A stretch of 41,615 bases of DNA from a virus (IMGVR_UViG_3300046011_006653:1-41615), one strand, 5' to 3'; numbered from the stretch's first letter, positions 7,093 through 32,226 are shown. Numbers and translations are program-made. Notes: generated by a model not told the origin, from the sequence alone.

Positions 7093-7620
7093 TTAGAATG
7101 GTAAATCATTTTTTTGAGGAGCAGCTACGTTTTCAGAAGGTAATCTTTCTACGTCATACTTATTTGTTTCATCAAATTTTAACTTTGATTCCCCTGCATT
7201 TACTTTAACCATATTCTCACAAAAGTCAGGTAAACCAATGTCTGATTTAATTCTAACTTTTCCTTCTTTATTCATATACTCAACACCTTTAACTTTCAAT
7301 CTAAAAGCTTTACCAGTTAATGCAGCATTGATTTTATCAATATTATTCATACTAGCTACTTTATCATTTTCATAATGTTTAGTTAGCATGTGTTTTAATT
7401 TAGAAGTTGTATAAGGAACAGCTCCGCCTTCCATAGACCAACTAACTTCCAATTCTTCACCATTTTCTTTAACAAAGCCTACTTTAACAACATTTTTACC
7501 ATTAGGTGTTGTATCTGCCATAACTCCTGTTACAGTAACTCCTTCGTGAATACCTGGACGCATAATTTGCTTACCTGTTACTACTCTATCTCCTTCTACA
7601 CTATTAAAATCTAAATTCAT
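7093..7620 (-). CDS. Putative single-stranded DNA-binding protein
   Basis: 175 residues, predicted beta-rich through residue 130 (OB-fold-like), followed by a flexible polar tail ending in NDLPF. That ending matches the acidic/hydrophobic C-terminal tip of bacterial SSBs (DDDIPF type), which recruits replication partners. It lies between primase and a Sak4-like ATPase. Sak4 single-strand annealing proteins usually work with an SSB partner, which strengthens the inference. Sequence similarity to classical SSB is not evident by eye, so the call rests on tail and context. Confidence 0.7.
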   Translation of the reverse strand: MNLDFNSVEGDRVVTGKQIMRPGIHEGVTVTGVMADTTPNGKNVVKVGFVKENGEELEVSWSMEGGAVPYTTSKLKHMLTKHYENDKVASMNNIDKINAALTGKAFRLKVKGVEYMNKEGKVRIKSDIGLPDFCENMVKVNAGESKLKFDETNKYDVERLPSENVAAPQKNDLPF

Positions 7621-11664: not shown

Positions 11665-11954
11665 ATTTTTTTAATATCTTTAATACTTCTTATTTCTTGT
11701 TCTGTATAGCTAGTACCAAATATAAAATTATATAAATTTATAAGTAAGTCTAAGTCTTTTTTTTTATTTAAAAAATCAATTAGTTTTTTTGGAATCTTAT
11801 CAAAGATTTCAAGTTTTTCAACTTTACTTTCTTTGATAATTTTATCCATTTTAACTGCTTTTAAATTCTTATCTCCATACTTATTAATTAAATAACTTTC
11901 AAATGTATTATCTATTCCAGTATTCTCGAAATCAAACTGTAAGGTGTTTTGCAT
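11661..11954 (-). CDS. Small uncharacterised protein
   Basis: 97 residues, Lys-rich and helical. It overlaps the end of the class II amidotransferase gene by 23 nt and the following gene by four, so translation is likely coupled. No recognised domain. It could be an accessory of the amidotransferase system by position. Confidence 0.6.
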   Translation of the reverse strand: MQNTLQFDFENTGIDNTFESYLINKYGDKNLKAVKMDKIIKESKVEKLEIFDKIPKKLIDFLNKKKDLDLLINLYNFIFGTSYTEQEIRSIKDIKKI

Positions 11955-13206
11955 TTGCTTTTTGATATTTAACTAAATCTTCATAATCTATTTGTCCTAT
12001 TCCACTAATATTTAAAGAAGCTTCTTTTTGTTTCATTCTAGGATTACCTAAATGCTTATTAATTTTCTTAATTGCATTTTTAGACAAATTTCTAGAATAA
12101 AGCTTATTTAAAGATTCATAATAATCAGCCTGAGCTTTTTTAGCATATATAGTTTTTTCTAATTTTTTAAATTGATTAGAATACATAGTATATCCAGTCC
12201 AATTATTACTATAAACTTCACTTAAAGTTATAGTAAAATCTTGAGTATTAGCACTATTAGGATAAATCATGTTTATATCAGTAATTTGTAGCATAGTTTT
12301 TTTAGGAACTAAAGTATCTTTTTCAGTACCTTTAAATACTATATGAACAGTATCATAATTATCTTCATTTAGTTCAAACCAATCATCTAAAATAACTGAA
12401 TTTATTCTTGAAGAAGAAGTATTTTTTATTTGAATTCTTTCTCTATGACTTCCAATACTATATCCTAATATTTTATTTAAAATACTAGTAGAAGGTAATT
12501 TTAAATCATCATTACTTTCTACTATTTCAGGTTTAGTAATTGTAGCTACTCCTCCAACATCTACATAATTAGGATTTTTATAACCTCCATTAGAAAATAA
12601 ATATCCTTTATCTTTTATAAATCCAGATATATCAGAATGTACCATAAGTTGATCATATTCAGGAAATAATGTACCTACTTTAGCCCATTCACCATTAGCA
12701 TAATGTTTAAAAAATGCAACAGGATCTTCTTTATAACCTTCCATATCTTGATCTATAACAGATTGTATGAAATTATAAGTATCAGATAAAGTTCTATCTA
12801 CCATAGTATAAGTATCTCTACCAAATATACCATTATGAGCAGTTACTGGTTTTTTTAGATCATGACTAAAAATAGTAAGTAATCCATTAGCCCCTCTTAC
12901 TTCATCATGTACATAAGGATGAGCATTACTTTCACTAGTTTCACCATTAGTAGCTGCTCTACCATGTATTAGAATTTCATCATTATCTGATAAATTCCAA
13001 CCTATTAGAGAATCTATAAATACTTTAGGATTTCTATCAAAAAAGCCTTTATTCATTATTAATGTAGCCTCTTTCTTATCATGATCATATTGCTTAACAG
13101 CATAACCCCAACCAGATCTATAACTTCTACATAAAACTTCTAAACAACTTTCTAAAAAGGGTTCATTTACTGGAACCCCAGCAGGTTTTAATATTAATAA
13201 ACACAT
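11932..13206 (-). CDS. Class II glutamine amidotransferase-like (Ntn) protein
   Basis: 424 residues. Cys2 directly follows the initiator Met (MCLLIL) and would become the N-terminal nucleophile. HGRAATNGE near 81-89, the SNAHPY segment and AHNGIF near 122 are the glutamine-binding and oxyanion features of the class II GATase fold. Enzymes of this class release ammonia from glutamine or act as related Ntn amidohydrolases. The C-terminal 200 residues are an unassigned beta-rich region plus a basic helical tail. Only 14 nt separate it from an amidoligase gene, suggesting that it supplies or removes amide groups in that pathway. Confidence 0.85.
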   Translation of the reverse strand: MCLLILKPAGVPVNEPFLESCLEVLCRSYRSGWGYAVKQYDHDKKEATLIMNKGFFDRNPKVFIDSLIGWNLSDNDEILIHGRAATNGETSESNAHPYVHDEVRGANGLLTIFSHDLKKPVTAHNGIFGRDTYTMVDRTLSDTYNFIQSVIDQDMEGYKEDPVAFFKHYANGEWAKVGTLFPEYDQLMVHSDISGFIKDKGYLFSNGGYKNPNYVDVGGVATITKPEIVESNDDLKLPSTSILNKILGYSIGSHRERIQIKNTSSSRINSVILDDWFELNEDNYDTVHIVFKGTEKDTLVPKKTMLQITDINMIYPNSANTQDFTITLSEVYSNNWTGYTMYSNQFKKLEKTIYAKKAQADYYESLNKLYSRNLSKNAIKKINKHLGNPRMKQKEASLNISGIGQIDYEDLVKYQKANAKHLTV

Positions 13207-13220
13207 TTAATTATTGTTTT

Positions 13221-14657
13221 TTAAGTTTCTAATATTTTAATTATTCTTTTATCTTCATCAAAAACTAATTCATTATTAGCTAAATCATTTTTCTCTTCTT
13301 TACTATTTATATCATCTATAAACAAGTATTTTCTTTTCTGAATGTAATCTATCAAACTTTGATTAGTCTTTTTAAAAGACTTCTTGATAACATTATCTAA
13401 AGTAAACTCAAAGTTATCTTCAAGTATTTCTCTATAATAATTATCAGCAACATAGCAAAATGCCATGCAAATTTGCACCCAAGATTTAATCTTAGTGTAA
13501 TTTGTTGTACTAGAGTGATTTCTAAACTCTAGTGTGTAAACAGGTTTAAACTTATCTCCTTTAGTATTAAACATAGCTGGTAAAAAGTTTAACCAAGCAT
13601 ATCTAATATTAGAATGATTATAACCTGCTTTAGCTCCTTGTGGATGGTTAGTAAGCTTATTAGCTTTTCTATCTTGATTTTGACTGCAAAGTATTTTAAA
13701 TAAAGTAGCATAGTAATTATCTACTCTAAAATTAAAATCTTCAACATTAGTTATATTATTAAAATTAACATTCAAATCATTTAACATAAAACAATAAGGA
13801 TTATTCCTTCTGCTTTTAGGTAACATATCAAATATTTCATTTTGTAATTTATAACCAAGCTTATATGCAGCTAATACAAAAGCTTTAGAAAAACTCATAC
13901 CACCGATGTGTACATGAAGACCTGTAGTATTGTTTAAACAACCTCTTTTACTAGCTTGATTACATATTAGTCTAAGTTGATTAAAACCAGCATCACCTGT
14001 TAAAACACCTGTAATCCATTCTGGACCATATTTCTCACCTTTAGAGTTAGTTATGCTACCATCTTTTACACAACTTATATTTAACATATCTCTTTTAATA
14101 GCGTGAATAGGTATAAATCCATCAGCCATTTCTATTTCTACACCAAAAGTATATTTCTTACCTTCAGTTAAAATATAGCTAGGAGATTTTTTACCTATTT
14201 TTATTTCTTGAGATATTGTTAAATTTTTACCACTAAACATGTTTTTAAATTCATTAAATTTAGGATAATCTTTATTTTTTTCTACATAATCTTTATCTTG
14301 AAAAATACCTTTAATAAAGTTTTCTACTATACCTAATTCTTTAAAAAGCTCTTCATTGTACAATACGTTAGTATTACTATATCCTTCTTTATTTATATAA
14401 GTAACATAAGCATTTAAACTATTGAAATCAACATCTCTAAAATGAGTAAAACAATCTATTAATTTGCCTTTATTATCTAACTTAAAAACAGGAATTGCTG
14501 ATTTTTTCTCTATGTAAGAATTTAAAATTTCAGAATAAATATAATATCTTTCTAAGTCTTCTTTATTAGCATTTAATTTATCAAGTACAGGTTTAAAAAA
14601 AGAATCAAACCCTCTACAAACCATATTTATTTTTTCAATTTGTTTTTCAATCTCCAT
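13221..14657 (-). CDS. Amidoligase_2-family enzyme
   Basis: 478 residues. The glutamine-synthetase-like amidoligase signature starts near residue 170: YTFGVEIEM, then KDGSI, GLHVHIGG near 250 and LEFRNHSST near 380. These hold the metal- and ATP-binding acidic, His and Arg residues of the family (PF12224). The N-terminal 160 residues are an extra helical region. Family members are predicted to form amide bonds between a carboxyl and an amine using ATP. It overlaps the second class II GATase by 11 nt, matching the linkage of amidoligases with GATases described by comparative genomics. Confidence 0.9.
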   Translation of the reverse strand: MEIEKQIEKINMVCRGFDSFFKPVLDKLNANKEDLERYYIYSEILNSYIEKKSAIPVFKLDNKGKLIDCFTHFRDVDFNSLNAYVTYINKEGYSNTNVLYNEELFKELGIVENFIKGIFQDKDYVEKNKDYPKFNEFKNMFSGKNLTISQEIKIGKKSPSYILTEGKKYTFGVEIEMADGFIPIHAIKRDMLNISCVKDGSITNSKGEKYGPEWITGVLTGDAGFNQLRLICNQASKRGCLNNTTGLHVHIGGMSFSKAFVLAAYKLGYKLQNEIFDMLPKSRRNNPYCFMLNDLNVNFNNITNVEDFNFRVDNYYATLFKILCSQNQDRKANKLTNHPQGAKAGYNHSNIRYAWLNFLPAMFNTKGDKFKPVYTLEFRNHSSTTNYTKIKSWVQICMAFCYVADNYYREILEDNFEFTLDNVIKKSFKKTNQSLIDYIQKRKYLFIDDINSKEEKNDLANNELVFDEDKRIIKILET

Positions 14658-16557
14658 AATATCTATTCATTAGATTGCTATTTTTTATTTCTTCTTCTTG
14701 ATGTTTAATTTTTTCAAGTAATAATGAAAAACTTTCATATAAACTTCTCTCTATATCTTGAGATACGCCTTTAAAATCTTCCATTAACATTTTTAACGCA
14801 GGTTTTTCTGAAATATTAGTAAATCCACTTTGCTCTGTATATCTAAAATTATCTTCATAATTTTCTAAACTTTCTATAATACTAGATAATTCATTATCAA
14901 GCATAGCATTATCTGGTTCTAATAAAAAATCATCTATTACTAAAGCATCATCAGTATTACCAGTAAATACATAAAAAGATTTAGCAAATTCAGATGTTAA
15001 ATTTTTATAAACAGTTTGATTCCATACAGAATCTTCTATTTCTACTTCAGCTGCTATTATTTCAGTTTCTCTAGCTAAAAAATCTTCTTCTTCAGCTTCA
15101 TTTTCTTCCATAAATGGATAACCATTTGATTTTACAAAAGGTACTTTTCGGTTAAGCCCAGATTCAACCAAACCATGTCCATCACAAATAGAACATAAAT
15201 TAGATTCACTATGTATCCATCCTATACCTGTACAATTAGAACAAGCTTCCAATCCTTCATATTTATTTGGGACAGCTGGAGGATATCTCATAGGTGTTTG
15301 ATTAGAAACAGGTTTATCAGTTTCCCAAATTAATTTTTGTTCTTCTGAAACTAAAGGTCTAATCCATTCATGTTTAATGCTGTTATATTGGATATTGTCT
15401 TCAGTTAATACAGAATAGTTAGTAATATTACCACTTTTACAAGAGGCTATAACTTTACATATTTGACCTTCTTTAATTTTAACAACACCCTCTTTATTTT
15501 CAACATCATCCATAAACATAACCCAACCTTTAATAAACATAGAATAAGCATTATTATTTTTTTCAAATACTTCTATATTTCTAGAAGAATATGCAATATA
15601 ATGTTTTCTAATAACTTCTATATGTTCACCATCTTTGCTAGTAACTCTTATCATTTCATCATTAGATATATCTAAAAACGCATCTTTTACAAATACCCAA
15701 TCACCATAAACAAATTTAGTATCATTTCCAACAGCAGTTTTAAATTTTGTTCTTTGGTCAATCATTACCCACTTATTGATATATTCTTTAAGACCAGAAT
15801 TAAAGTTAGTTGTAGTATGTTTAACAACTTTACTAACTACTTTAAATTCACTAAATACATATCCATCTAAAACTTGTTTTTCAACTAAGCTTGTAGATTT
15901 ATACTCATAATTTTCTTTAGCTATTTCAATAGTAGATAAACAATTAACTCCAAAACTAAAAGTAACAGAGCAATTAATTGCTTTTAAGCTACTTTCTGTA
16001 GAACTAATATATACATTACCATCATCTTTACATATACCCCAAAATAAAGGTCTTTCTGAATTTCTATAAACATATAATATAGGAGATTTTTTAGTAATAT
16101 CTGTATATAATACAGCTGTACCACCATCTAATTCTTCAAATATTGTATGATTTTTACGTTTAGCTAATATTTGAGCTATAACCTGAGTATCTGTTTTCCA
16201 ATCTTTATCTTTAATTAAGCCTTCTTTAGCTGCTAAACTACCTTCATTACTCAAAGTACCATTATGAGCCATTACAAGCCATTCATACTTCATTGGATGA
16301 GCATTTGCAGCATCAGTTTTACTACCAGAAGTACCAGATCTAACATGTCCTATTAATAAATTACTAGGTAGTAACTCATTAAATTCTTTCTTAGCAATAA
16401 ATTCTTCTGCTTTAACACACTCTTTAATTACATTATCTGTAACAGGAGTCCAAATACCAGTTGAATCTTTACCTCTTTCTTGATTATGATAAAAAAGAAA
16501 TCTTATCTTTTCTTTATTATAATCTGTTTTACCTATAAAACCTATTATTCCACACAT
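14647..16557 (-). CDS. Class II glutamine amidotransferase with zinc-ribbon extension
   Basis: 636 residues. Residues 1-230 are a GlmS/PurF-type GATase domain: MCGIIGFIG with Cys2 nucleophile, HVRSGTSG near 71, AHNGT near 97 and a DGGTAVLY segment near 144. It lacks any sugar isomerase or phosphoribosyltransferase domain. Residues 250-410 look beta-rich, perhaps SH3-like. Residues about 439-462 hold two CxxC pairs in DnaJ-like CxxCxGxG form (CSNCTGIGW, CSICDGHG), a probable zinc ribbon. The tail is acidic and helical. It is the second class II GATase in the cluster and overlaps the amidoligase gene. The domain combination is unusual. Confidence 0.88.
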   Translation of the reverse strand: MCGIIGFIGKTDYNKEKIRFLFYHNQERGKDSTGIWTPVTDNVIKECVKAEEFIAKKEFNELLPSNLLIGHVRSGTSGSKTDAANAHPMKYEWLVMAHNGTLSNEGSLAAKEGLIKDKDWKTDTQVIAQILAKRKNHTIFEELDGGTAVLYTDITKKSPILYVYRNSERPLFWGICKDDGNVYISSTESSLKAINCSVTFSFGVNCLSTIEIAKENYEYKSTSLVEKQVLDGYVFSEFKVVSKVVKHTTTNFNSGLKEYINKWVMIDQRTKFKTAVGNDTKFVYGDWVFVKDAFLDISNDEMIRVTSKDGEHIEVIRKHYIAYSSRNIEVFEKNNNAYSMFIKGWVMFMDDVENKEGVVKIKEGQICKVIASCKSGNITNYSVLTEDNIQYNSIKHEWIRPLVSEEQKLIWETDKPVSNQTPMRYPPAVPNKYEGLEACSNCTGIGWIHSESNLCSICDGHGLVESGLNRKVPFVKSNGYPFMEENEAEEEDFLARETEIIAAEVEIEDSVWNQTVYKNLTSEFAKSFYVFTGNTDDALVIDDFLLEPDNAMLDNELSSIIESLENYEDNFRYTEQSGFTNISEKPALKMLMEDFKGVSQDIERSLYESFSLLLEKIKHQEEEIKNSNLMNRYYGD

Positions 16558-16572
16558 GTATTTTTAATTTTT

Positions 16573-17421
16573 TTATACATTAATTTTTACCAATTCTTTT
16601 ACTGTAGTCTCTAACTTATATTTATCTAATAGATAAGTAGCTATATCTCTATCATTAGTATCAATAGCTTGAATACAAGCTTCTATATCTGATAAATTAT
16701 CGAATCTAAAACCATTATTAATATCATCTATTAACTTAAAAGTTTGTTCAAATATATAGTTACAAATATTAATATCTTTAAACCAGAAATTACTTAATGT
16801 TCTATACTCTAAGCCAAAGTTTTTAAACCTATAAGCACCTGCTTTTCCATACATCTGCTTTCTTAAATATCCTTTGTCTAGTATAACACTAGGAACACCT
16901 AAATATAAATCTAAACCTCTTAAAATAGCTAAATTAGTATCTTCATTAGGATTATCATAACCTATAGCAAGATGACCACCAGCACTTCTAAGATTACCAC
17001 CAGGAGCTGGAGCTATATTTTCATCAAGTGTCCAAGAATTAAAATCTGGTTCACAACCAAACTCTTGTGCTTTTTTAGTTTTTAATTGACTTTCATCAAA
17101 ATATAAAGCACTATCAAAACAAAATTTATATTTATAATTATCTAGTTTCTCTTTTTGAATATAATTAAATACTTCTAAGAAACTTTCATAGAATACATTA
17201 ACATCACTGCTAGGTATAATATTAAATTCTGCTGCTACATTATCTTCTTGATAACCTAACATATCTTTCAACCATATTGGTCTTTTCTTAGTACCACCAA
17301 CAAGTCCTACAAGACTTGCTGGTTTATTATTACTGTCTAGAGCAAAAAACTCTGGATCACTTCCTAATAATACATTTTTAATAGGAGTTATTTTATTTTC
17401 ATTTAATTTTACTACTTGCAT
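16573..17421 (-). CDS. COOH-NH2 ligase (type 2 phage amidoligase)
   Basis: 282 residues. LLGSDPEFFAL near 19-29, DNVAAEFNIIPS near 61, RSAGGHLAIGY near 145 and GLEYRTLSNFW near 205 are the catalytic blocks of the phage COOH-NH2 ligase family (PF14395 type), a relative of glutamine synthetase. The acidic residues of DPEF and AEFN and the HLAIG His should bind metal-ATP. It is the second, distinct amidoligase here, two bases from a class I GATase/peptidase gene. It is predicted to form a peptide or isopeptide-like amide, with unknown substrate. Confidence 0.88.
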   Translation of the reverse strand: MQVVKLNENKITPIKNVLLGSDPEFFALDSNNKPASLVGLVGGTKKRPIWLKDMLGYQEDNVAAEFNIIPSSDVNVFYESFLEVFNYIQKEKLDNYKYKFCFDSALYFDESQLKTKKAQEFGCEPDFNSWTLDENIAPAPGGNLRSAGGHLAIGYDNPNEDTNLAILRGLDLYLGVPSVILDKGYLRKQMYGKAGAYRFKNFGLEYRTLSNFWFKDINICNYIFEQTFKLIDDINNGFRFDNLSDIEACIQAIDTNDRDIATYLLDKYKLETTVKELVKINV

Positions 17422-17423
17422 TT

Positions 17424-18143
17424 TTAATCTAAATCTTGGTTAATAACTGCATTAATAATTTCATCAATTCTAGGATCTAATAGTTCCTCTGGATGACCTT
17501 GAATTCCAAATATAGGTAAACTTTCATGCACAAACATTTCAACTACTCTTTCACTATCTGTTGTACACATAGATATTAATTCAGAAGAATATTTTTTTAA
17601 ATTTGATAGACTTACAGCTTGATGATGTAAACTATTTAAATCAAAACCTTCTTTACTACCTTTATAAGTACTACTTTTTGTATACATACCTATCCTTCTA
17701 GGGAATTGTACAGTAACATTTTTATGTACTATATCTCCTCTATCTTTAGATTGTGGATGAAAATATAAATGTTGTGTTAAAGGACTTCCAAAATATACAG
17801 CTAATGTTTGCATACCTCTACATATACCTACAATTGGTTTACCTGATTGTACAATTTTAGGTAAACAATAAGTATCAAAACTTTCTAGTATTTGATTAGG
17901 TGGCCATGCCCAAATATGAGGTACTTCATTATATCTAACTGGATTAACATCTGCTCCTCCAGGTAATACAAAAGCATCTACTTCTGTAATAATTTTATCT
18001 ATTTCAGTATGCTCATTAGGAGATATTATCCTAACTGTACCAAATTGAGTTAAATAATCATAATAAGGTTTAGTTACACCAAAACTGTTGTCTCCAACAT
18101 TCCAGCCTACAATTGCAATTACTTTTTTTTGTGTTTTATTCAT
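17424..18143 (-). CDS. Class I glutamine amidotransferase / C26 peptidase-like
   Basis: 239 residues. PGGADVNP near 55-62, GICRGMQTLAVYFG near 103 with the nucleophilic Cys, SLHHQAVSL near 170 and GIQGHPEE near 218 with catalytic His and Glu mark the class I GATase fold. They most resemble PuuD-like gamma-glutamyl hydrolases. These cleave gamma-glutamyl amides or supply ammonia. Next to an amidoligase, it could reverse or trim the bond the ligase makes, or feed it ammonia. Complete triad, normal length. Confidence 0.88.
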   Translation of the reverse strand: MNKTQKKVIAIVGWNVGDNSFGVTKPYYDYLTQFGTVRIISPNEHTEIDKIITEVDAFVLPGGADVNPVRYNEVPHIWAWPPNQILESFDTYCLPKIVQSGKPIVGICRGMQTLAVYFGSPLTQHLYFHPQSKDRGDIVHKNVTVQFPRRIGMYTKSSTYKGSKEGFDLNSLHHQAVSLSNLKKYSSELISMCTTDSERVVEMFVHESLPIFGIQGHPEELLDPRIDEIINAVINQDLD

Positions 18144-18160
18144 TTTTAAATTGTTTTTAA

Positions 18161-19255
18161 TTATACTTTATTATGTTCAAATAAATCTATAAAGATATAA
18201 GGATTTAATTTTATCACTACATAATCATTAGGAGCATAGCTATTTTTACATATATTATACGGTAATATATCTATTATAACTTTATCTAATTCTACTGTAC
18301 CTGCCGCTAATTTTTTAAATGCTTTTTCAAATATTTCATAAGATTCAACACCTTCATAATACAAAGCATTCATTAATTGTACAACTAATGATAAAGTTTT
18401 GTTAGATAAACCTGCTGTTAAAAGCCCATTAAAAGAAATATTAACACTATTATTTTTAGATAAAGAGCTAATAACTTCTTTTATACTAGAAGTAATTTTA
18501 CCAATACAAGGAGATGAGTAATACCAAGAATTTGATATATCTAATCTTTTTAAATTTAGATAACTAGCATAAAATACATTATAAGTACTATTTAAAGTAT
18601 AAGTTGCTTGATTGAATTCATCATCTTGTTTACTAGTACCATTATAAAATGGGACATAACTTCCTATAATTGTAGCAACTATAAATATTTGATAATTATC
18701 TAATTTTTTACCTGATTCAACTACTTTATTACAAATAGCAGGTATTTGACAACCTGAACTAAATGAATAGATATATCTAGATAGTTGAAATGTAGCAAAA
18801 TAATGATAATTAGATTTAAAATCTGAATGATTTAATCTTATTAGATATTCTGTTTTATCTGAACAATCTAATGTCATAGGAAAGCCCAATTCTGTACAAA
18901 AATCTACCCAAAATTGTATATAATCTGAAGGTACATCAAAACCTGCCATTTTAGATACTTCTTCTATGTATTTTCTTTCTATAAAATGAATAGTTTCACT
19001 ACAATTATCAAATAAATTATTCATTCTTAAATTTTGAGCACATCCAAAACTATGAGTAGTTACAGCTTTTGTATTTTTAGTAATAGTATGAACTTTAGCT
19101 TGATGATACATCTTTTTACTAGGATTATTACCAGCTGAATAAGATACAATATCTCTAATCATACTACCTAAAGCTTGTATTTTAGGTTCTATTTGACTTC
19201 TTAATTCTTCTTTAAATGAAATTATTTCATTTGTTTTTTCTTTAGTTAATTCCAT
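18161..19255 (-). CDS. Uncharacterised protein in amidoligase cluster
   Basis: 364 residues, mostly helical by composition, with scattered Cys and His (HSFGCAQN, NCSETIH, DFCTELG) but no clear metal motif. No signal peptide or convincing membrane span. It lies between the C26-like gene and the ATP-grasp gene with 1-17 nt gaps, so it is probably co-expressed with them. It might be a substrate or scaffold for the ligases, purely by position. Confidence 0.65.
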   Translation of the reverse strand: MELTKEKTNEIISFKEELRSQIEPKIQALGSMIRDIVSYSAGNNPSKKMYHQAKVHTITKNTKAVTTHSFGCAQNLRMNNLFDNCSETIHFIERKYIEEVSKMAGFDVPSDYIQFWVDFCTELGFPMTLDCSDKTEYLIRLNHSDFKSNYHYFATFQLSRYIYSFSSGCQIPAICNKVVESGKKLDNYQIFIVATIIGSYVPFYNGTSKQDDEFNQATYTLNSTYNVFYASYLNLKRLDISNSWYYSSPCIGKITSSIKEVISSLSKNNSVNISFNGLLTAGLSNKTLSLVVQLMNALYYEGVESYEIFEKAFKKLAAGTVELDKVIIDILPYNICKNSYAPNDYVVIKLNPYIFIDLFEHNKV

Positions 19256-19256
19256 A

Positions 19257-20141
19257 TTATCTGTTTGCTTTATCTTTAATTAGTTTAGGAATTTCTTCAA
19301 TGTATTTTTGAGTAGTAATATCACCAAAACTTGGAGCACTTGCAGATTCTACAATAATCCATTCAGGGTTATTACGTTCCCTACCTTCTTTAGAACCTTG
19401 TACCATTACATCAAATGCACAAATATCAAGACCTAAAGCTTGCTGTGCTCTTATACAATCTTCTACAATTAAATTCCAATTATTAGGTTTTTTAAAACTA
19501 GGATTGCTTTCTAAAGCCCAAGTTACTACATCATCATGTCTTTGCCAAGTACCTTCAGGTGCATCGTTTCTTAGTAATTTTCTACAAGCATAAAAACAAC
19601 CATTCTTACTAATATGTAATCTATACTCTCTTGTATATCCTACAAATTGCTCAAAAATATAGCTAGATAGATCTCTATTTCTCATCCAAACTTCTAAAGC
19701 TTGTTGATTGTCTAACTTAGTATTACCAACACCTCTACTACCAAAATGAGATTTAGCTATGATGGGGAAAGGTAAATCACTAATACTTCTATCAGCTTCA
19801 CCTAACGCTATTCCTTTTTCAATCCATCCTCTGCCTCCAATAGAATCATATTTTACAAACCATCTTGCAGTTTTAACACTTGCTCTAGTAAAACATCGTT
19901 TCATCAATAACTTACTAGCACTATTTCTAACACCTGTAACACTATTAATTTCAATTCTACTATATAATCCATCTCCAGATGTAGTAGAGCCTAATCTAAC
20001 TATACTTCTATATGGAAGTAAAGGTAATTCTCTTCTTAATGGACTATGACTAGGATGTCTACTTCTAACTTGAGGTCTAAATCTAGTAGGTATTTTTTTA
20101 GTAGGAGCTTTTACTCCAACATTCTTTCTTTTAACTAACAT
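19257..20141 (-). CDS. ATP-grasp ligase
   Basis: 294 residues. The first 60 are basic and Pro/Arg/Ser rich and probably disordered. The ATP-grasp fold follows: FPIIAKSHFGSRGVG near 123-137 (ATP-binding Lys and Gly loop), IFEQFV near 160, EYRLHISKNG near 170 and the metal-binding CAFDVMV and WIIVESASAPSFG near 240-272. The family joins a carboxylate to an amine or thiol through an acyl-phosphate. With two amidoligases nearby it suggests stepwise peptide or amide synthesis. It overlaps the following upstream gene by seven bases. Confidence 0.87.
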   Translation of the reverse strand: MLVKRKNVGVKAPTKKIPTRFRPQVRSRHPSHSPLRRELPLLPYRSIVRLGSTTSGDGLYSRIEINSVTGVRNSASKLLMKRCFTRASVKTARWFVKYDSIGGRGWIEKGIALGEADRSISDLPFPIIAKSHFGSRGVGNTKLDNQQALEVWMRNRDLSSYIFEQFVGYTREYRLHISKNGCFYACRKLLRNDAPEGTWQRHDDVVTWALESNPSFKKPNNWNLIVEDCIRAQQALGLDICAFDVMVQGSKEGRERNNPEWIIVESASAPSFGDITTQKYIEEIPKLIKDKANR

Positions 20142-20780: not shown

Positions 20781-21656
20781 TTAGTTTCTTAAAGCTTGTA
20801 AATATTGAGACCAAGTATAACCATATTCATCTTGTTTTTCTTGATTTAATGTAGCATTACTATCATTAGGATCATAATACCATACTTTCTTTCTAATAGT
20901 ATTACACCAAGAAGTTCTAAAATGGTCTCTACTAACAATAGTAGTTAATATTTGTAATACTTCTCTTAAAGTACAAGCAGGATAATAGTATTTACAAATC
21001 ATAAATATATCACCTAAACTACGTCTTCTACCCCAAGTAGTTTGTACTTCATGATTATCAACAAAAATAGTATTTTTATATTCACCTTGCTCTTCATCTA
21101 CTTCATTATTACCATTCCACTCTATAAAGAACTTTTCAATAAATTGAGCAAGAGTTTCCCTTCTAGTTCTTAATGTTCTTTCTAATCTTATAGACCTAGT
21201 ATAAGAATCTGTTATAATTCTTTCTAAAGTATTTAACATTGTAGTATTATTAGTTGTAGTAGTTGTAGGATTAGTAGGTGTTGGAGTAGTAACTGTTGTA
21301 GGAATATCATATACAGCAGTTAAATCTACAGCTCTAATAATAGCTCTTCTTCTATCAGTAGGTTGAAAATCTACTACAGCTCTATTCTTTTTATAATAAA
21401 TAGATATTATAGTACCTGGTAAAGTTACCCCTTCTATAAGAACATTATACCTTTGAGATTTCTCAACTCTATGATGAACAGTTCTAGTTTTATTTATTAT
21501 TTTAGTAATACTAAAACCTGGTATTCCTAACATGTCTTGTAAACCTACTTCTGTACCAAATTGTGAATCAACTCTTCTAGTTGCATATAAACCTGTTCTA
21601 TTGTCTAATACATATAAACAATTACTTATTGTAAATTCTAAAATTTGACTTGTCAT
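20781..21656 (-). CDS. Uncharacterised two-part protein with Thr/Pro linker
   Basis: 291 residues. Residues 1-115 are beta-rich and basic, like the neighbouring protein. Residues about 117-140 are a low-complexity Thr/Pro/Asn linker (TPTPTNPTTTTTNN). The C-terminal 150 residues are helical with many Trp and Tyr (FFIEWNGNNE, WSQYLQAL). The stop/start junction with the next upstream gene overlaps by one base. Not recognised. Confidence 0.65.
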   Translation of the reverse strand: MTSQILEFTISNCLYVLDNRTGLYATRRVDSQFGTEVGLQDMLGIPGFSITKIINKTRTVHHRVEKSQRYNVLIEGVTLPGTIISIYYKKNRAVVDFQPTDRRRAIIRAVDLTAVYDIPTTVTTPTPTNPTTTTTNNTTMLNTLERIITDSYTRSIRLERTLRTRRETLAQFIEKFFIEWNGNNEVDEEQGEYKNTIFVDNHEVQTTWGRRRSLGDIFMICKYYYPACTLREVLQILTTIVSRDHFRTSWCNTIRKKVWYYDPNDSNATLNQEKQDEYGYTWSQYLQALRN

Positions 21657-26347: not shown

Positions 26348-27253
26348 TTAAAATATGTTTAATTGTTTAATTAAAGAACTATTGTGTACTATAGCATTTG
26401 AAAAACTTTGATAACTGTTAGTACAATATATACCATCAAAATAATAACCTAATTCTGTTGTTCCTTTACTAAAAATTCCATGAGTTACTATGAGATATTT
26501 TTTAGTATTAAAACCTTCATAATACTTATTAATTTCTTTAGCTATGTTGATAAACGTAGCTCCCCCATCACAAATATCATCTATAATAACAAAGTCTTTT
26601 TCAGGCGCGATAGAACCATTTAAAGGTACAACTACTTTATTTAAATTACCATTAACATCTCTATCTTTACTACAAGTAATAATATTTCCTTTATAACCAA
26701 TTTGTTCAGCTATTTTGTATATCTTTTTACTTGCTCCTGCGTCTGGAGATACTAAGATAAATTCATCTACTTTAGGATTTCTACCATGTGTAAAGCCACA
26801 TAAGTCTTGAATAGTAAATTTAACTAATTCTAAATTAGAAACTTTCTTAAAGTTATTAATACAATTATCTAATACTAAACTATGAGAATCAATACAGGTA
26901 ACTGATTTAAAATTTAAAGAATTAATAATAGGAGCTAATACAGATTTAATATAATAATTACTACCTTCTTCAAATTTATTATCTTGTCTACCATCTATAA
27001 AAGGTACATATAAATGTATTTCTTCTACTCCTAACTCTCTTAAAGATGCACAAGCACACATTATAAGTTCTAAGTCAAGAAAGTTGTTTAAACGTGATTT
27101 AATTATAACTATACATTCTTTATGTGTTAATATAAAATCTCCTTCTAAACAATCATTTTTATCAATAATAATATTCTGCTGTCCCGAAGGAAATTTACTG
27201 ATTTTGTATTTAATATCTGATTTATCAACATCAACTAAATTTAAGTTTTTCAT
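26348..27253 (-). CDS. Ribose-phosphate pyrophosphokinase-like protein
   Basis: 301 residues. PFIDGRQDNKFEEG near 85-98 corresponds to the ATP-contact arginine segment of PRPP synthetases. CIDSHS near 121, SPDAGASKK near 168 and the ribose-5-phosphate/PRPP loop FVIIDDICDGGATF near 220-233 complete the family pattern. In the canonical reaction ATP and ribose-5-phosphate give PRPP. A variant in phage NAD+ reconstitution pathway 1 instead makes ADP-ribose pyrophosphate. It is separated by only two bases from the NAMPT-like gene, so the two almost surely act in one pathway. Which substrate it uses cannot be read from sequence by eye. Confidence 0.88.
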   Translation of the reverse strand: MKNLNLVDVDKSDIKYKISKFPSGQQNIIIDKNDCLEGDFILTHKECIVIIKSRLNNFLDLELIMCACASLRELGVEEIHLYVPFIDGRQDNKFEEGSNYYIKSVLAPIINSLNFKSVTCIDSHSLVLDNCINNFKKVSNLELVKFTIQDLCGFTHGRNPKVDEFILVSPDAGASKKIYKIAEQIGYKGNIITCSKDRDVNGNLNKVVVPLNGSIAPEKDFVIIDDICDGGATFINIAKEINKYYEGFNTKKYLIVTHGIFSKGTTELGYYFDGIYCTNSYQSFSNAIVHNSSLIKQLNIF

Positions 27254-27255
27254 AA

Positions 27256-28839
27256 TTATATTTTATTTAATCTTTCTCTAATTTCTGTTAAAGAAGTTTG
27301 GTTAAAGAATTTACCATCTTCATAGATTACTTGAAGTACACCATAAGTTTCATCATAAAGTGAGCACTCAGTAACAACATAATATTCACCATTTGCTTTT
27401 TTATGTACAGCACATAAACCTTTTAAAGATTTCTTACTACCATCATCTGTAATAGGATCTTTGTAGATGTTGTAAAATTTAGTTCTAATACCCCATTCAA
27501 CACTTTCAGGAGTAGCTAAAAATTCTTCTTCAACTTCAAACCAAGCACCTTTAGCAGCAAATCCTAATGTATCTCTAGTATTATACTGATAAGTAAATGA
27601 ACCTACACCTAATACAATATTCGTTGAAGCAAATCCTTTAGCAGCTAATCTTTCATAAATTTCACGCTGTCTATCAGGTGTAATACTATCACCATATATA
27701 GCACCAATATGTGGATCAAGAACTTTATATCCTTGTTCATTTACTGTACCACCAAAAATATCCCAAAGTAATTCTATTACTCCTTTATGTTGAGGTAGCC
27801 CACTTACTTCAATTGGAGTTTTACCATGTTCAGAAGACTTTTCTAATTTATAGTATTTACCATCAGGACTTGGTAATTCTCCACAAATAATATCTACAGG
27901 ATCTCCTGAATCAGGTCTAATTACTAATTTACCATCACGAGCCATAATAGCTTCTTTATTAGCTGGCAAATATTCAGTAATAAGTTTCCATAAATCAAAT
28001 GTATCTGATACAATACTTAATATTCCTTTAGGAAATATCTGTAACCAATCAGTAATCATTTGTTGTTCACCTACTGTAAAGATTTTAGTAGTACTAACAC
28101 TATGTTCAGAAGCATTAACACTAAATATAGGCATTTCATCTTCACCTACTCCGTAGAAATATCTACTTGCAGGTATAACAGGTAATGTATCACTACCTTT
28201 AAATGATGTAGCATGTCCTAATCCTATTAGATATTGACTCATTGGGTCTAATCCACGAGCAGAGAAATCATGGCACATAAAATCCACTAACCATAAATTC
28301 TTCTCATCAGTTTTCATAACCCATTCTTCAGCTTGTCTTCTATACAATTTAGCAATAGTAGCTGCTGTACTAGGTTTCCAAGCTAATGAAGAAACTACAG
28401 TTTCAAGATATAATGTTAACCATGCAAATCCATCTACTGTATTTACAAAAGTCATATGAGGAATATTAGGATCAGTTTCAATACCTTCAGGTAATGATTT
28501 AACTTTAATAGGTAAATAACCTAAATCCCATAGTTTTTCAAAATGTTTACCATCATATTCCATACCTAAGTATAAAGACATATCTTTAACAAATTGAAGT
28601 GCAGTATCTCTATTATCCCCATCACGTTTCATAAAGAAGTTTTCCTCAAACTCATCATGTAACCATTTCCAAACTAATTGTTGACCAAATGATACAATTT
28701 TAGTAATACCTTTTGGAGCATGTTTAACACTTCTTGGTATCCAAGTACCATATAATTTAATTGTTCCAGGAGCTAACATAGCTTTATGTCCAACTTTATA
28801 ACCATCGCTTAAATATAAGCTGTTTATTTTAAATCCCAT
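27256..28839 (-). CDS. Nicotinamide phosphoribosyltransferase-like enzyme
   Basis: 527 residues, close to NAMPT length. LSDGYKVGHKAML near the N-terminus, DFMCHDFSARGL with FKGSDTLPV near 205-240, VIRPDSGDPVD near 310 and GDSITPDRQ near 395 match the substrate-binding blocks of NAMPT (the RPDSGxP loop is diagnostic). NAMPT makes nicotinamide mononucleotide from nicotinamide and PRPP. A relative, NAMAT, uses ADP-ribose pyrophosphate to give NAD+ directly. Paired with the downstream Prs-like gene it could refill NAD+ during NAD+-depleting host defence. Confidence 0.92.
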   Translation of the reverse strand: MGFKINSLYLSDGYKVGHKAMLAPGTIKLYGTWIPRSVKHAPKGITKIVSFGQQLVWKWLHDEFEENFFMKRDGDNRDTALQFVKDMSLYLGMEYDGKHFEKLWDLGYLPIKVKSLPEGIETDPNIPHMTFVNTVDGFAWLTLYLETVVSSLAWKPSTAATIAKLYRRQAEEWVMKTDEKNLWLVDFMCHDFSARGLDPMSQYLIGLGHATSFKGSDTLPVIPASRYFYGVGEDEMPIFSVNASEHSVSTTKIFTVGEQQMITDWLQIFPKGILSIVSDTFDLWKLITEYLPANKEAIMARDGKLVIRPDSGDPVDIICGELPSPDGKYYKLEKSSEHGKTPIEVSGLPQHKGVIELLWDIFGGTVNEQGYKVLDPHIGAIYGDSITPDRQREIYERLAAKGFASTNIVLGVGSFTYQYNTRDTLGFAAKGAWFEVEEEFLATPESVEWGIRTKFYNIYKDPITDDGSKKSLKGLCAVHKKANGEYYVVTECSLYDETYGVLQVIYEDGKFFNQTSLTEIRERLNKI

Positions 28840-28841
28840 AA

Positions 28842-29276
28842 TTATCCTATTTCATCTAATTGTTTATTACTTTCTTTAAATCCTCTATATTGATATAGAG
28901 CTGATTCTAATATGTCTAAAGCTTCATTTAATCCACTTCTATCACATAAATTAATATTATAATATATTTTACCATTATTACCATAAGGTAAAGCTATTGG
29001 ATTGTTATTAATAGCATCTATTGGTATTTTAACTTTCTCACAATATTCTTGTATTTCAGAAAATCTATCAGTATTACAAGCTGTAAATACTACAATATAA
29101 GCTCCTGTATAATGAGCTAATTGTAATAATTTAATAGTTCTTTGTATATCTTCTTCATTAAAATTTTCTCTATATGCAAATATAGTATCATCAAAATCAG
29201 TAGATATAATTATTTTACCATGTATTTTCCATTCTTCAAATAATCTCTGTGTATATTTATTTTTAATTATACTCAT
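28842..29276 (-). CDS. HAD-superfamily phosphatase-like protein
   Basis: 144 residues. STDFDDTIFAY near 26-36 is HAD motif I (DxDxT type), VVFTACNTDR near 62-71 fits motif II, and a Lys/Arg-rich centre follows. Motif III/IV acids are less clear, with NINLCDRSG near 107 a possible match. Immediately upstream of the NAMPT-like gene (two bases), so a role in nucleotide or NAD+ precursor dephosphorylation is plausible, though a polynucleotide or sugar phosphatase is equally possible. Confidence 0.7.
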   Translation of the reverse strand: MSIIKNKYTQRLFEEWKIHGKIIISTDFDDTIFAYRENFNEEDIQRTIKLLQLAHYTGAYIVVFTACNTDRFSEIQEYCEKVKIPIDAINNNPIALPYGNNGKIYYNINLCDRSGLNEALDILESALYQYRGFKESNKQLDEIG

Positions 29277-30891: not shown

Positions 30892-31746
30892 TTAAAATAT
30901 ATATCTTATTGTGTTCCAAGGTATAATACTATCATGTATTTCAACCCATTCTTTTATGTAATTACTTTTTAAATTATGTTTATATCTAATATTATCTCCA
31001 CCATATTGTGATATTTTAGATTCTTGAATATCAGGAGTCCATAATAATTCTTCACCTGTTAATTTATTAGCTAAATTATATTTATGTTTATTCTCATTAT
31101 GAGTTAAAAATATAACTTCACATTTAACTATATCTTTATAATCAACATAAGTATTAACCATTTGAAATAAATCTTCATAATCTTTTAACCAATTATCATA
31201 AACAATAACAGGACTAAAGTTTATATGTACATCATAACCAGCATCTATAAAAGCATCAATAGCTTTAATTCTATCAATTATTTTAGATGTATTAGGTTCT
31301 AATTTATCAGATATATTTTGAGGCATTAAACTGAATCTAATTCTAATTTTACTTTCAGGATTAAATTTAGTTAAATTAGGATTAACATATTTAGTAGCTA
31401 AACTACCCATTGCTAATGGATGATTTTTAAAGAAATCAAATATTTTTTCCCATTCATGATATTTAGCATGTAAAGCAAAATCTTCATTACAACTTATATC
31501 ATAAGTTATAAACTTTTCATGAGTTTGATTAGGTTTATCTACAATAGCAAACATTGAATGATTATTAATTTCAGTTAATATATTCATAGTATTTTTTGCT
31601 ATATCTAATCCTTCAAATTTATGTCTTTTCATATAACAATAAGAACAATTATATAAACAACCATAACCAAAACTAGGACTAATAAAATCTGTTGACCTAC
31701 CACTAGGTCTTATAATCATAGATTTTCTTATAACTTTTTCTATCAT
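30892..31746 (-). CDS. Radical SAM protein, spore photoproduct lyase-like
   Basis: 284 residues. CLYNCSYCYM near 30-39 is the CxxxCxxC motif that binds the [4Fe-4S] cluster with SAM. The flanking PSFGYGC, the absence of other Cys-rich insertions and the ATKYVNPN and RIRFSLMP strands match the SplB/COG1533 radical SAM group. Spore photoproduct lyase repairs thymine dimers in DNA; others in COG1533 have unknown substrates. A phage copy could repair or modify AT-rich phage DNA. The C-terminal region is intact and shows no extra domain. Overlaps the small gene upstream by four bases. Confidence 0.8.
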   Translation of the reverse strand: MIEKVIRKSMIIRPSGRSTDFISPSFGYGCLYNCSYCYMKRHKFEGLDIAKNTMNILTEINNHSMFAIVDKPNQTHEKFITYDISCNEDFALHAKYHEWEKIFDFFKNHPLAMGSLATKYVNPNLTKFNPESKIRIRFSLMPQNISDKLEPNTSKIIDRIKAIDAFIDAGYDVHINFSPVIVYDNWLKDYEDLFQMVNTYVDYKDIVKCEVIFLTHNENKHKYNLANKLTGEELLWTPDIQESKISQYGGDNIRYKHNLKSNYIKEWVEIHDSIIPWNTIRYIF

Positions 31747-31994: not shown

Positions 31995-32144
31995 AATTTA
32001 ATTTATTAATATTTACTAATACTACAGTTAATCAGACTGTATTGCTAGACAAGCTAGATTCTCTTTATAATAAGAAGCAATATGAAAGCACTTATTAAAT
32101 GATATGTTAAACTAAGTATTAGTAGTCCCTTTTAAAGACTGTTG
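31995..32144 (-). other. Non-coding stretch 3' of the tRNA, hairpins
   Basis: No credible ORF. On the minus strand AGTCTTT pairs with GGGACT-type sequence just after the tRNA, TATTGCT (around 32079) pairs with AGCAATA (around 32039), and ACAGT/ACTGT form a small hairpin near 32025-32041. They may mark processing or termination downstream of the tRNA. No second tRNA could be folded. Confidence 0.4.
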
Positions 32145-32226
32145 TACTCAAAAAGAGATTTGAACTCTTACACCTTACGGCACTAGTTTCTAAAACTAGC
32201 GTGTCTACCAATTCCACCATTTGAGC
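32145..32226 (-). tRNA. tRNA-Leu (anticodon UAG)
   Basis: 82 nt on the minus strand. The acceptor strand GCTCAAA pairs with TTTGAGT (G-U at the end). The anticodon arm CTAGT-TTTAGAA-ACTAG presents UAG, which reads CUA leucine codons. A long variable arm (TGCCGTAAGGTGT) is typical of Leu tRNAs, and the T arm is AAGAG-TTCAAAT-CTCTT. CCA is not encoded (CAA follows). It lies five to eight bases from the tmRNA 3' end, so both probably come from one precursor. Confidence 0.93.

Follow-up and report, generated by a model that had tools for sequence, protein, structure and literature searches.

What would a phage do with six enzymes of amide-bond chemistry encoded side by side? The question is raised by positions 11932-20141 of IMGVR_UViG_3300046011_006653:1-41615, a viral sequence of 41,615 nucleotides (hereafter the window) that is a 41.6-kb fragment and not a complete genome. 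An earlier note on this DNA had described two amidoligases, two class II glutamine amidotransferases (GATases), a C26-like enzyme and an ATP-grasp enzyme there, and had attributed them to a crAss-like phage. Our analysis indicated that the cluster is a real, non-chance set of amide-bond enzymes and is the crAss-type form of the cassette of phages phiEco32, LUZ24 and RIO-1, described since 2009. The proposed open reading frame (ORF) positions and tight spacing held up, all ORFs lying on the minus strand with junctions that overlap by at most 11 nt or leave gaps of at most 17 nt, and six of the seven encoded proteins were assigned to enzyme families. The cluster is enclosed in a closely packed minus-strand run from 24071 to 8339, which extends from a DNA polymerase gene to a DnaB-like helicase gene.

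Hidden Markov model (HMM) matches and retained residues, the latter read from alignments of approximately 110-145 relatives per family, placed all six enzymes in the families originally named (Table 1). Only GT2b, the divergent second class II GATase, was placed weakly by its profile match, with no match in a Pfam search, and was then backed by its residues (C2 nucleophile, R83, N125-G126 oxyanion hole and D142) and by its phylogenetic clade (see below). GT2a, the first GATase, retains C2, R73, N99, G100 and D123, and carries a zinc-finger-like CxxC stretch at approximately residues 437-464. The amidoligase AL1 retains E174, E176, D199, S201, E213, H248, H250, E377 and R379, whilst the COOH-NH2 ligase CL2 retains E24, E65, H150, R187, R198, E205 and R207, with the near-invariant W222 replaced by Y as an exception. 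The C26 enzyme has kept its triad (C108-H217-E219) and HHQ motif, and its nearest PDB entry was 3fij (Lin1909; 1e-11), followed by 7d4r and 7d53. The ATP-grasp ligase was 39 % identical to that of crAss-like phage cr108_1 and retains the invariant residues K77, E172, R174, K188, D244 and E265. At its residue 267 the ETN-type motif reads ESA, the residue being Asn in cr108_1 and a Leptolyngbya phage; this column is outside those conserved at 90 % or more. With conserved catalytic residues retained, all six enzymes look intact and active as far as sequence can indicate.

Table 1. Features of the cassette and of associated protein families. Positions refer to the window unless a contig is named.
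Feature	Position	Strand	Match or remark
GT2b, second divergent class II GATase, 424 aa	11932..13206	-	phrog_4736 1.8e-4
AL1, amidoligase, 478 aa	13221..14657	-	Amidoligase_2 PF12224 1.2e-13
GT2a, class II GATase without synthetase domain, 636 aa	14647..16557	-	PF13522 (GATase_6) 2.8e-13, phrog_4736 1e-29
CL2, phiEco32-like COOH-NH2 ligase type 2, 282 aa	16573..17421	-	PF14395 1.4e-9, phrog_3815 3e-64
C26, Peptidase_C26-type class I GATase / gamma-glutamyl hydrolase, PuuD/SpuA-like, 239 aa	17424..18143	-	PF07722 6e-27
U364, protein of unknown function, 364 aa	18161..19255	-	hypervariable-family HMM E 0.0018-0.0047
ATP-grasp carboxylate-amine ligase, RimK/GshB-like, 294 aa	19257..20141	-	phrog_2599 5e-23, rimK_fam 1e-4
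U214, basic protein of unknown function, 214 aa	20135..20779	-	directly upstream of ATP-grasp gene
U291	20781-21656	-	family with GRRRSLGDIF.ICKYYYP stretch
CFS/CWA proteins (other contigs)	L012:10295-10912, L106:714-1367, L045:2334-2879, L091:3227-3811		several near DnaB

A sequence search for solved structures of AL1, CL2 and the ATP-grasp enzyme returned nothing significant; the two amidoligases were considered through predicted models. That of CL2, with a mean predicted local distance difference test (pLDDT) score of 94.7, matched YbdK with Z 14.6 over 233 residues, as well as bifunctional glutathione synthetase, Pup ligase and glutamate-cysteine ligase (Z 13-14.6 including YbdK). The AL1 model had a mean pLDDT of 75 and was poor in its N-terminal part; its catalytic domain, at approximately residues 145-460, matched YbdK and glutamine synthetases with Z of approximately 11.7 over residues 145-463. 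Both proteins are thus predicted to belong to the glutamine synthetase/gamma-glutamylcysteine ligase (GS/GCS) fold.

Searching IMG/VR with CL2 identified 391 loci; 312 phage records also matched it. The best 80 of the 391 loci collapsed to 76 contigs, in which AL1 (74/76), a class II GATase (75/76), ATP-grasp (70/76), C26 (66/76) and gamma-glutamyl cyclotransferase (GGCT; 29/76) were found near CL2. A separate ATP-grasp scan gave 65 contigs, with CL2 in 55, AL1 in 54, a class II GATase in 56, C26 in 53 and GGCT in 54. In most contigs the GATase adjoins AL1 and C26 adjoins CL2. This co-occurrence far exceeds chance, and the genes proposed to form a cluster do co-occur in related phages. GGCT is a common accessory, not a universal member: a PF06094 search of the 41.6-kb record, itself a fragment, gave no match, and none was nearby in the relatives L028, L045, L076 and L105 either. 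Scanning genome contigs for CL2 yielded 13 loci, all in metagenome-assembled genomes. Predicted promoters and terminators in the region did not exceed the shuffled background.

This gene set has been annotated in PaP3, phiEco32, Cronobacter phage A24, tf, Aeromonas phage LAh_9 and others, and also in crAss-like cr108_1 and the isolated crAss-like Cellulophaga phage phi14:2. The window carries all four core components of the phiEco32/LUZ24-type cassette, namely a PF14395 ligase, a PF12224 amidoligase, a class II GATase without synthetase domain and an ATP-grasp enzyme. The amidoligase-GATase linkage raised in the earlier note was thus upheld, but as part of a cassette already known from many isolated phages. 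PMC5498523 names it a peptidoglycan modification cassette, PMC10580990, citing Iyer 2009, links that of phiEco32 to superinfection exclusion, and in phage HP1 the cassette genes are expressed immediately (PMC7082346). Envelope modification is accordingly a thought proposed earlier for this cassette, and stands in the literature as a proposal only; our literature search found no paper containing both 'crAss-like' and 'amidoligase'. The cassette is widespread, tractable isolates such as phiEco32, LUZ24, PaP3 and phi14:2 included.

GT2b, a distinct paralog beside the amidoligase, is a new feature of the crAss-type cassette. In a tree it formed a monophyletic paralog clade with copies from 20 other contigs (21 loci; support 0.999), located downstream of AL1, and the first copies of GT2a type clustered with GATases from other crAss-type cassettes that have one copy each. 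We take GT2b to be a true class II GATase because its catalytic residues are kept and its clade is so strongly supported. That a class II GATase was duplicated and retained beside the amidoligase argues that both work together. A tblastn search of deposited phage genomes gave no match to GT2b at 1e-2. A crAss-type portal (E 1e-106 to 1e-151) was identified in six GT2b-bearing relatives (L090, L105, L083, L045, L115 and L108). This favours a crAss-like source of the window without proving it; no such portal was recognised in the 41.6-kb fragment. Placement by DNA polymerase was discarded, as the best matches were assorted phages at 36-38 % identity with no crAss-like phage among the 15 listed.

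Our preferred reading, to which we assign a probability of approximately 45 %, is that the cassette performs early, ATP-dependent gamma-glutamyl and amide chemistry on soluble peptide precursors, those of host peptidoglycan being the leading candidate. The presence of two amidotransferases without synthetase domains adjoining an amidoligase suggests ammonia supply: GT2a and GT2b would hydrolyse glutamine and pass ammonia to AL1, which would use its GS fold to activate a carboxylate with ATP and yield a primary amide. CL2 and the ATP-grasp enzyme suggest carboxylate-amine ligation, whereby the GCS-like CL2 and its partner would couple amines to carboxylates, the latter probably those of glutamate or of a peptide that contains it. 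The presence of C26 and, in relatives, GGCT suggests cutting of gamma-glutamyl bonds; C26 may cut or transfer gamma-glutamyl groups, a task that GGCT could share. The substrate would most likely be a soluble Glu/diaminopimelate-type peptide, foremost a peptidoglycan precursor, and its modification early in infection might produce an envelope that excludes other phages or resists hydrolases. Peptidoglycan precursors fit the immediate expression in HP1. They also fit the type of host: among 60 records sampled at even spacing from the 312 CL2-matching phage records, the hosts were of Gram-negative type and none of those named was Gram-positive.

Several points weigh against this reading. No peptidoglycan-binding domain or Mur-ligase relative was found in the window cluster, and the literature search found no biochemistry for any cassette member. 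The apparent host restriction is confounded by shared phage ancestry. Tree distances of AL1, the class II GATase and ATP-grasp were correlated (r 0.76-0.89), but those of CL2, AL1 and the GATase were correlated equally highly with the phage primase (r 0.81-0.86), such that co-inheritance may be plain vertical descent. A free peptide, polyamine or protein target would fit amide-bond chemistry equally.

Of these targets, a free gamma-glutamyl peptide or amine (a polyamine or signalling metabolite), which the ligases would assemble and C26 or GGCT would break down as in PuuA/PuuD or the glutathione cycle, is a possibility that we regard as rather doubtful. It would account for the PuuD/SpuA-type family of C26, the resemblance of CL2 to YbdK and glutamate-cysteine ligase, the additional match of the AL1 model to 4hpp, a glutamine synthetase homolog, and the presence of GGCT in most crAss-type relatives, but it leaves the stand-alone class II GATases unexplained, and Puu-type oxidases or dehydrogenases were not recognised in the cassette. 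Modification of a host or phage protein or peptide, in the manner of RimK, Pup ligase or graspetide enzymes, appears unlikely. The match of the CL2 model to the Pup ligase PafA and to Dop (Z approximately 13) is common to all GS-type ligases, and we recognised neither a conserved short tag nor a conserved core peptide, although the ATP-grasp enzyme is in a RimK-type family and CL2 is adjoined by a hypervariable protein family (see below) that might itself be the target.

We consider it very unlikely that these are auxiliary nitrogen-metabolism genes aiding host ammonia assimilation, as claimed for a Planctomycetes phage. Growth on nitrate or ammonium increased with Phage-ZRK32, a carrier of genes for an amidoligase, a GATase, a glutathione synthase-like protein and GGCT (PMC10945688), whose record contains a CL2 homolog; however, that work used whole phage preparations, not gene deletions, and bacteria generally own a glutamine synthetase, so the genes would look redundant. 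Hypermodification of phage DNA bases could explain why replication genes surround the cassette in many genomes, yet is scarcely credible because five ordinary restriction enzymes (RsaI, HpaI, EcoRV, SmaI and HaeIII) cut the DNA of cassette-bearing phage tf (PMC3517423); moreover, we recognised neither a base hydroxylase nor a base-transfer enzyme beside the window cassette. A link, through the nearby NAMPT/Prs genes, to salvage of nicotinamide adenine dinucleotide (NAD) was rejected, as two isolates have related genes close to the cassette but 0/76 CL2 contigs do, and so was a role in anti-phage defence, for which PADLOC returned no match.

Whatever the product, the cassette is accompanied by ORFs without an assigned function. 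In isolates, one or two of these (260-460 residues) lie directly before CL2 (e.g. PaP3 orf50/49, phiEco32 gp88/87, A24 gp30/31 and tf 17/18), and many crAss-type cassettes have one adjoining ATP-grasp, C26 or CL2. By BLAST, those of PaP3, phiEco32, A24 and crAss-type phages were unrelated, as were paralogs within a phage, the exceptions being the cr108_1 gp29/30 pair and a marginal match between A24 and phiEco32. The CL2 proteins of these phages, in contrast, share 30-48 % identity. A C[FYW]G motif within the first 90 residues, spotted by eye before counting such that the count is descriptive, was present in 16/52 cassette-associated ORFs versus 21/949 other ORFs, and in 15/19 of those from isolates and cr108_1. 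Leave-one-out models, trained without BLAST-detectable relatives (E 1e-2), placed 15 of the 25 members with the motif among the 18 best-ranked of approximately 890 ORFs, and four of six top-scoring background ORFs that were inspected turned out to adjoin C26, CL2 or ATP-grasp without having been listed as cassette neighbours. Four members are each assigned to a different PHROGs family of unknown function. We read these proteins as a single hypervariable family, new to this analysis, whose hallmark is a Cys-Phe/Tyr-Gly motif near the N-terminus.

U364, the seventh protein of the cluster, had a BLAST relative only in a sibling contig. Its match to the family HMM (Table 1) was obtained with a model trained without it, and 0/400 shuffles reached its score, but its E-value was unstable between iterated models (22 to 0.0084). 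The alignment fell at a central L-x-x-x-R-Y helix, with SFG in place of CFG. ORFs at the equivalent position in L105, L103, L062 and L098 did not match the family model. U364 is probably a weak, divergent member of the family; comparison with individual neighbouring families gave hhalign probabilities of 1 % or less, and homology to any one of them was rejected. A role for U364 as substrate or scaffold, suggested in the earlier note, is possible. More broadly, and tentatively, the family with this helix, including the PaP3, phiEco32 and cr108_1 pairs and probably U364, might serve as ligase substrate, acceptor or host-specific adaptor, its divergence marking an arms race at the modification site. 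Were it an acceptor or adaptor, the cassette product would be reachable by pull-down and mass spectrometry.

Elsewhere in crAss-type contigs, proteins of 170-216 residues with N-terminal CFS or CWA matched the family at E 1e-4 to 1e-9 (Table 1) and may be copies outside the cassette. The primase/DnaB-adjacent proteins of approximately 190 residues were rejected as a group, as it took iterated models to bring many of them into the family; their BLAST clusters F6 and F20 were background-like with the cassette-only model, though single members match. A 175-aa window protein (7093-7620) gave no match. The basic, beta-rich proteins next to the cluster, also tied to it previously, proved to be linked to it less closely. 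Homologs of U214 occupy the same position in L028/L103, L045, L062 and L076, making it an occasional partner, whereas the U291 family, present in 42 of the 65 contigs of the ATP-grasp scan, lies mostly near DnaB and not in the cassette.

Further minus-strand features of the window include Prs-like and nicotinamide phosphoribosyltransferase-like genes (26348-28839), a pair for NAD salvage like that of phage NAD-restoration systems; L004 and L006 have related genes close to the cassette as well. A protein matching phrog_1238, a phage phosphoheptose isomerase family (28842-29276), a spore photoproduct lyase-like radical S-adenosylmethionine protein that is a possible DNA repair enzyme (30892-31746; PF20903 2e-20) and a tRNA-Leu gene (32144-32226) were also identified.

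Compared with named systems, the cassette resembles peptidoglycan amidation by MurT/GatD and AsnB/LtsA in that a glutaminase feeds ATP-dependent carboxylate amidation, but the ligase folds there are those of Mur ligase or AsnB synthetase as opposed to GS/GCS. The PuuA/PuuD gamma-glutamyl polyamine pathway likewise combines a GS-fold ligase with a C26-type gamma-glutamyl hydrolase; the cassette differs in its additional class II GATases and ATP-grasp enzyme and in having no recognised oxidoreductases. With the phiEco32/LUZ24/PaP3/RIO-1/PSA-HP1 cassette (Iyer 2009, Hardies 2013) the window shares PF14395, PF12224, class II GATase and ATP-grasp genes clustered near replication genes, whilst it adds GT2b, has the C26 class I enzyme, and, as a fragment, is without GGCT and a PaP3 orf47-type gene. 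The Steigviridae phages cr108_1 and phi14:2 differ in their single GATase and in a uracil-DNA glycosylase gene adjoining the amidoligase gene in both, and cr108_1 has DNA polymerase I at the place of the phrog_1252-type polymerase of the window; their ATP-grasp enzyme, PF14395 ligase, class II GATase and amidoligase are nevertheless encoded in the same order as in the window, and cr108_1 also carries C26.

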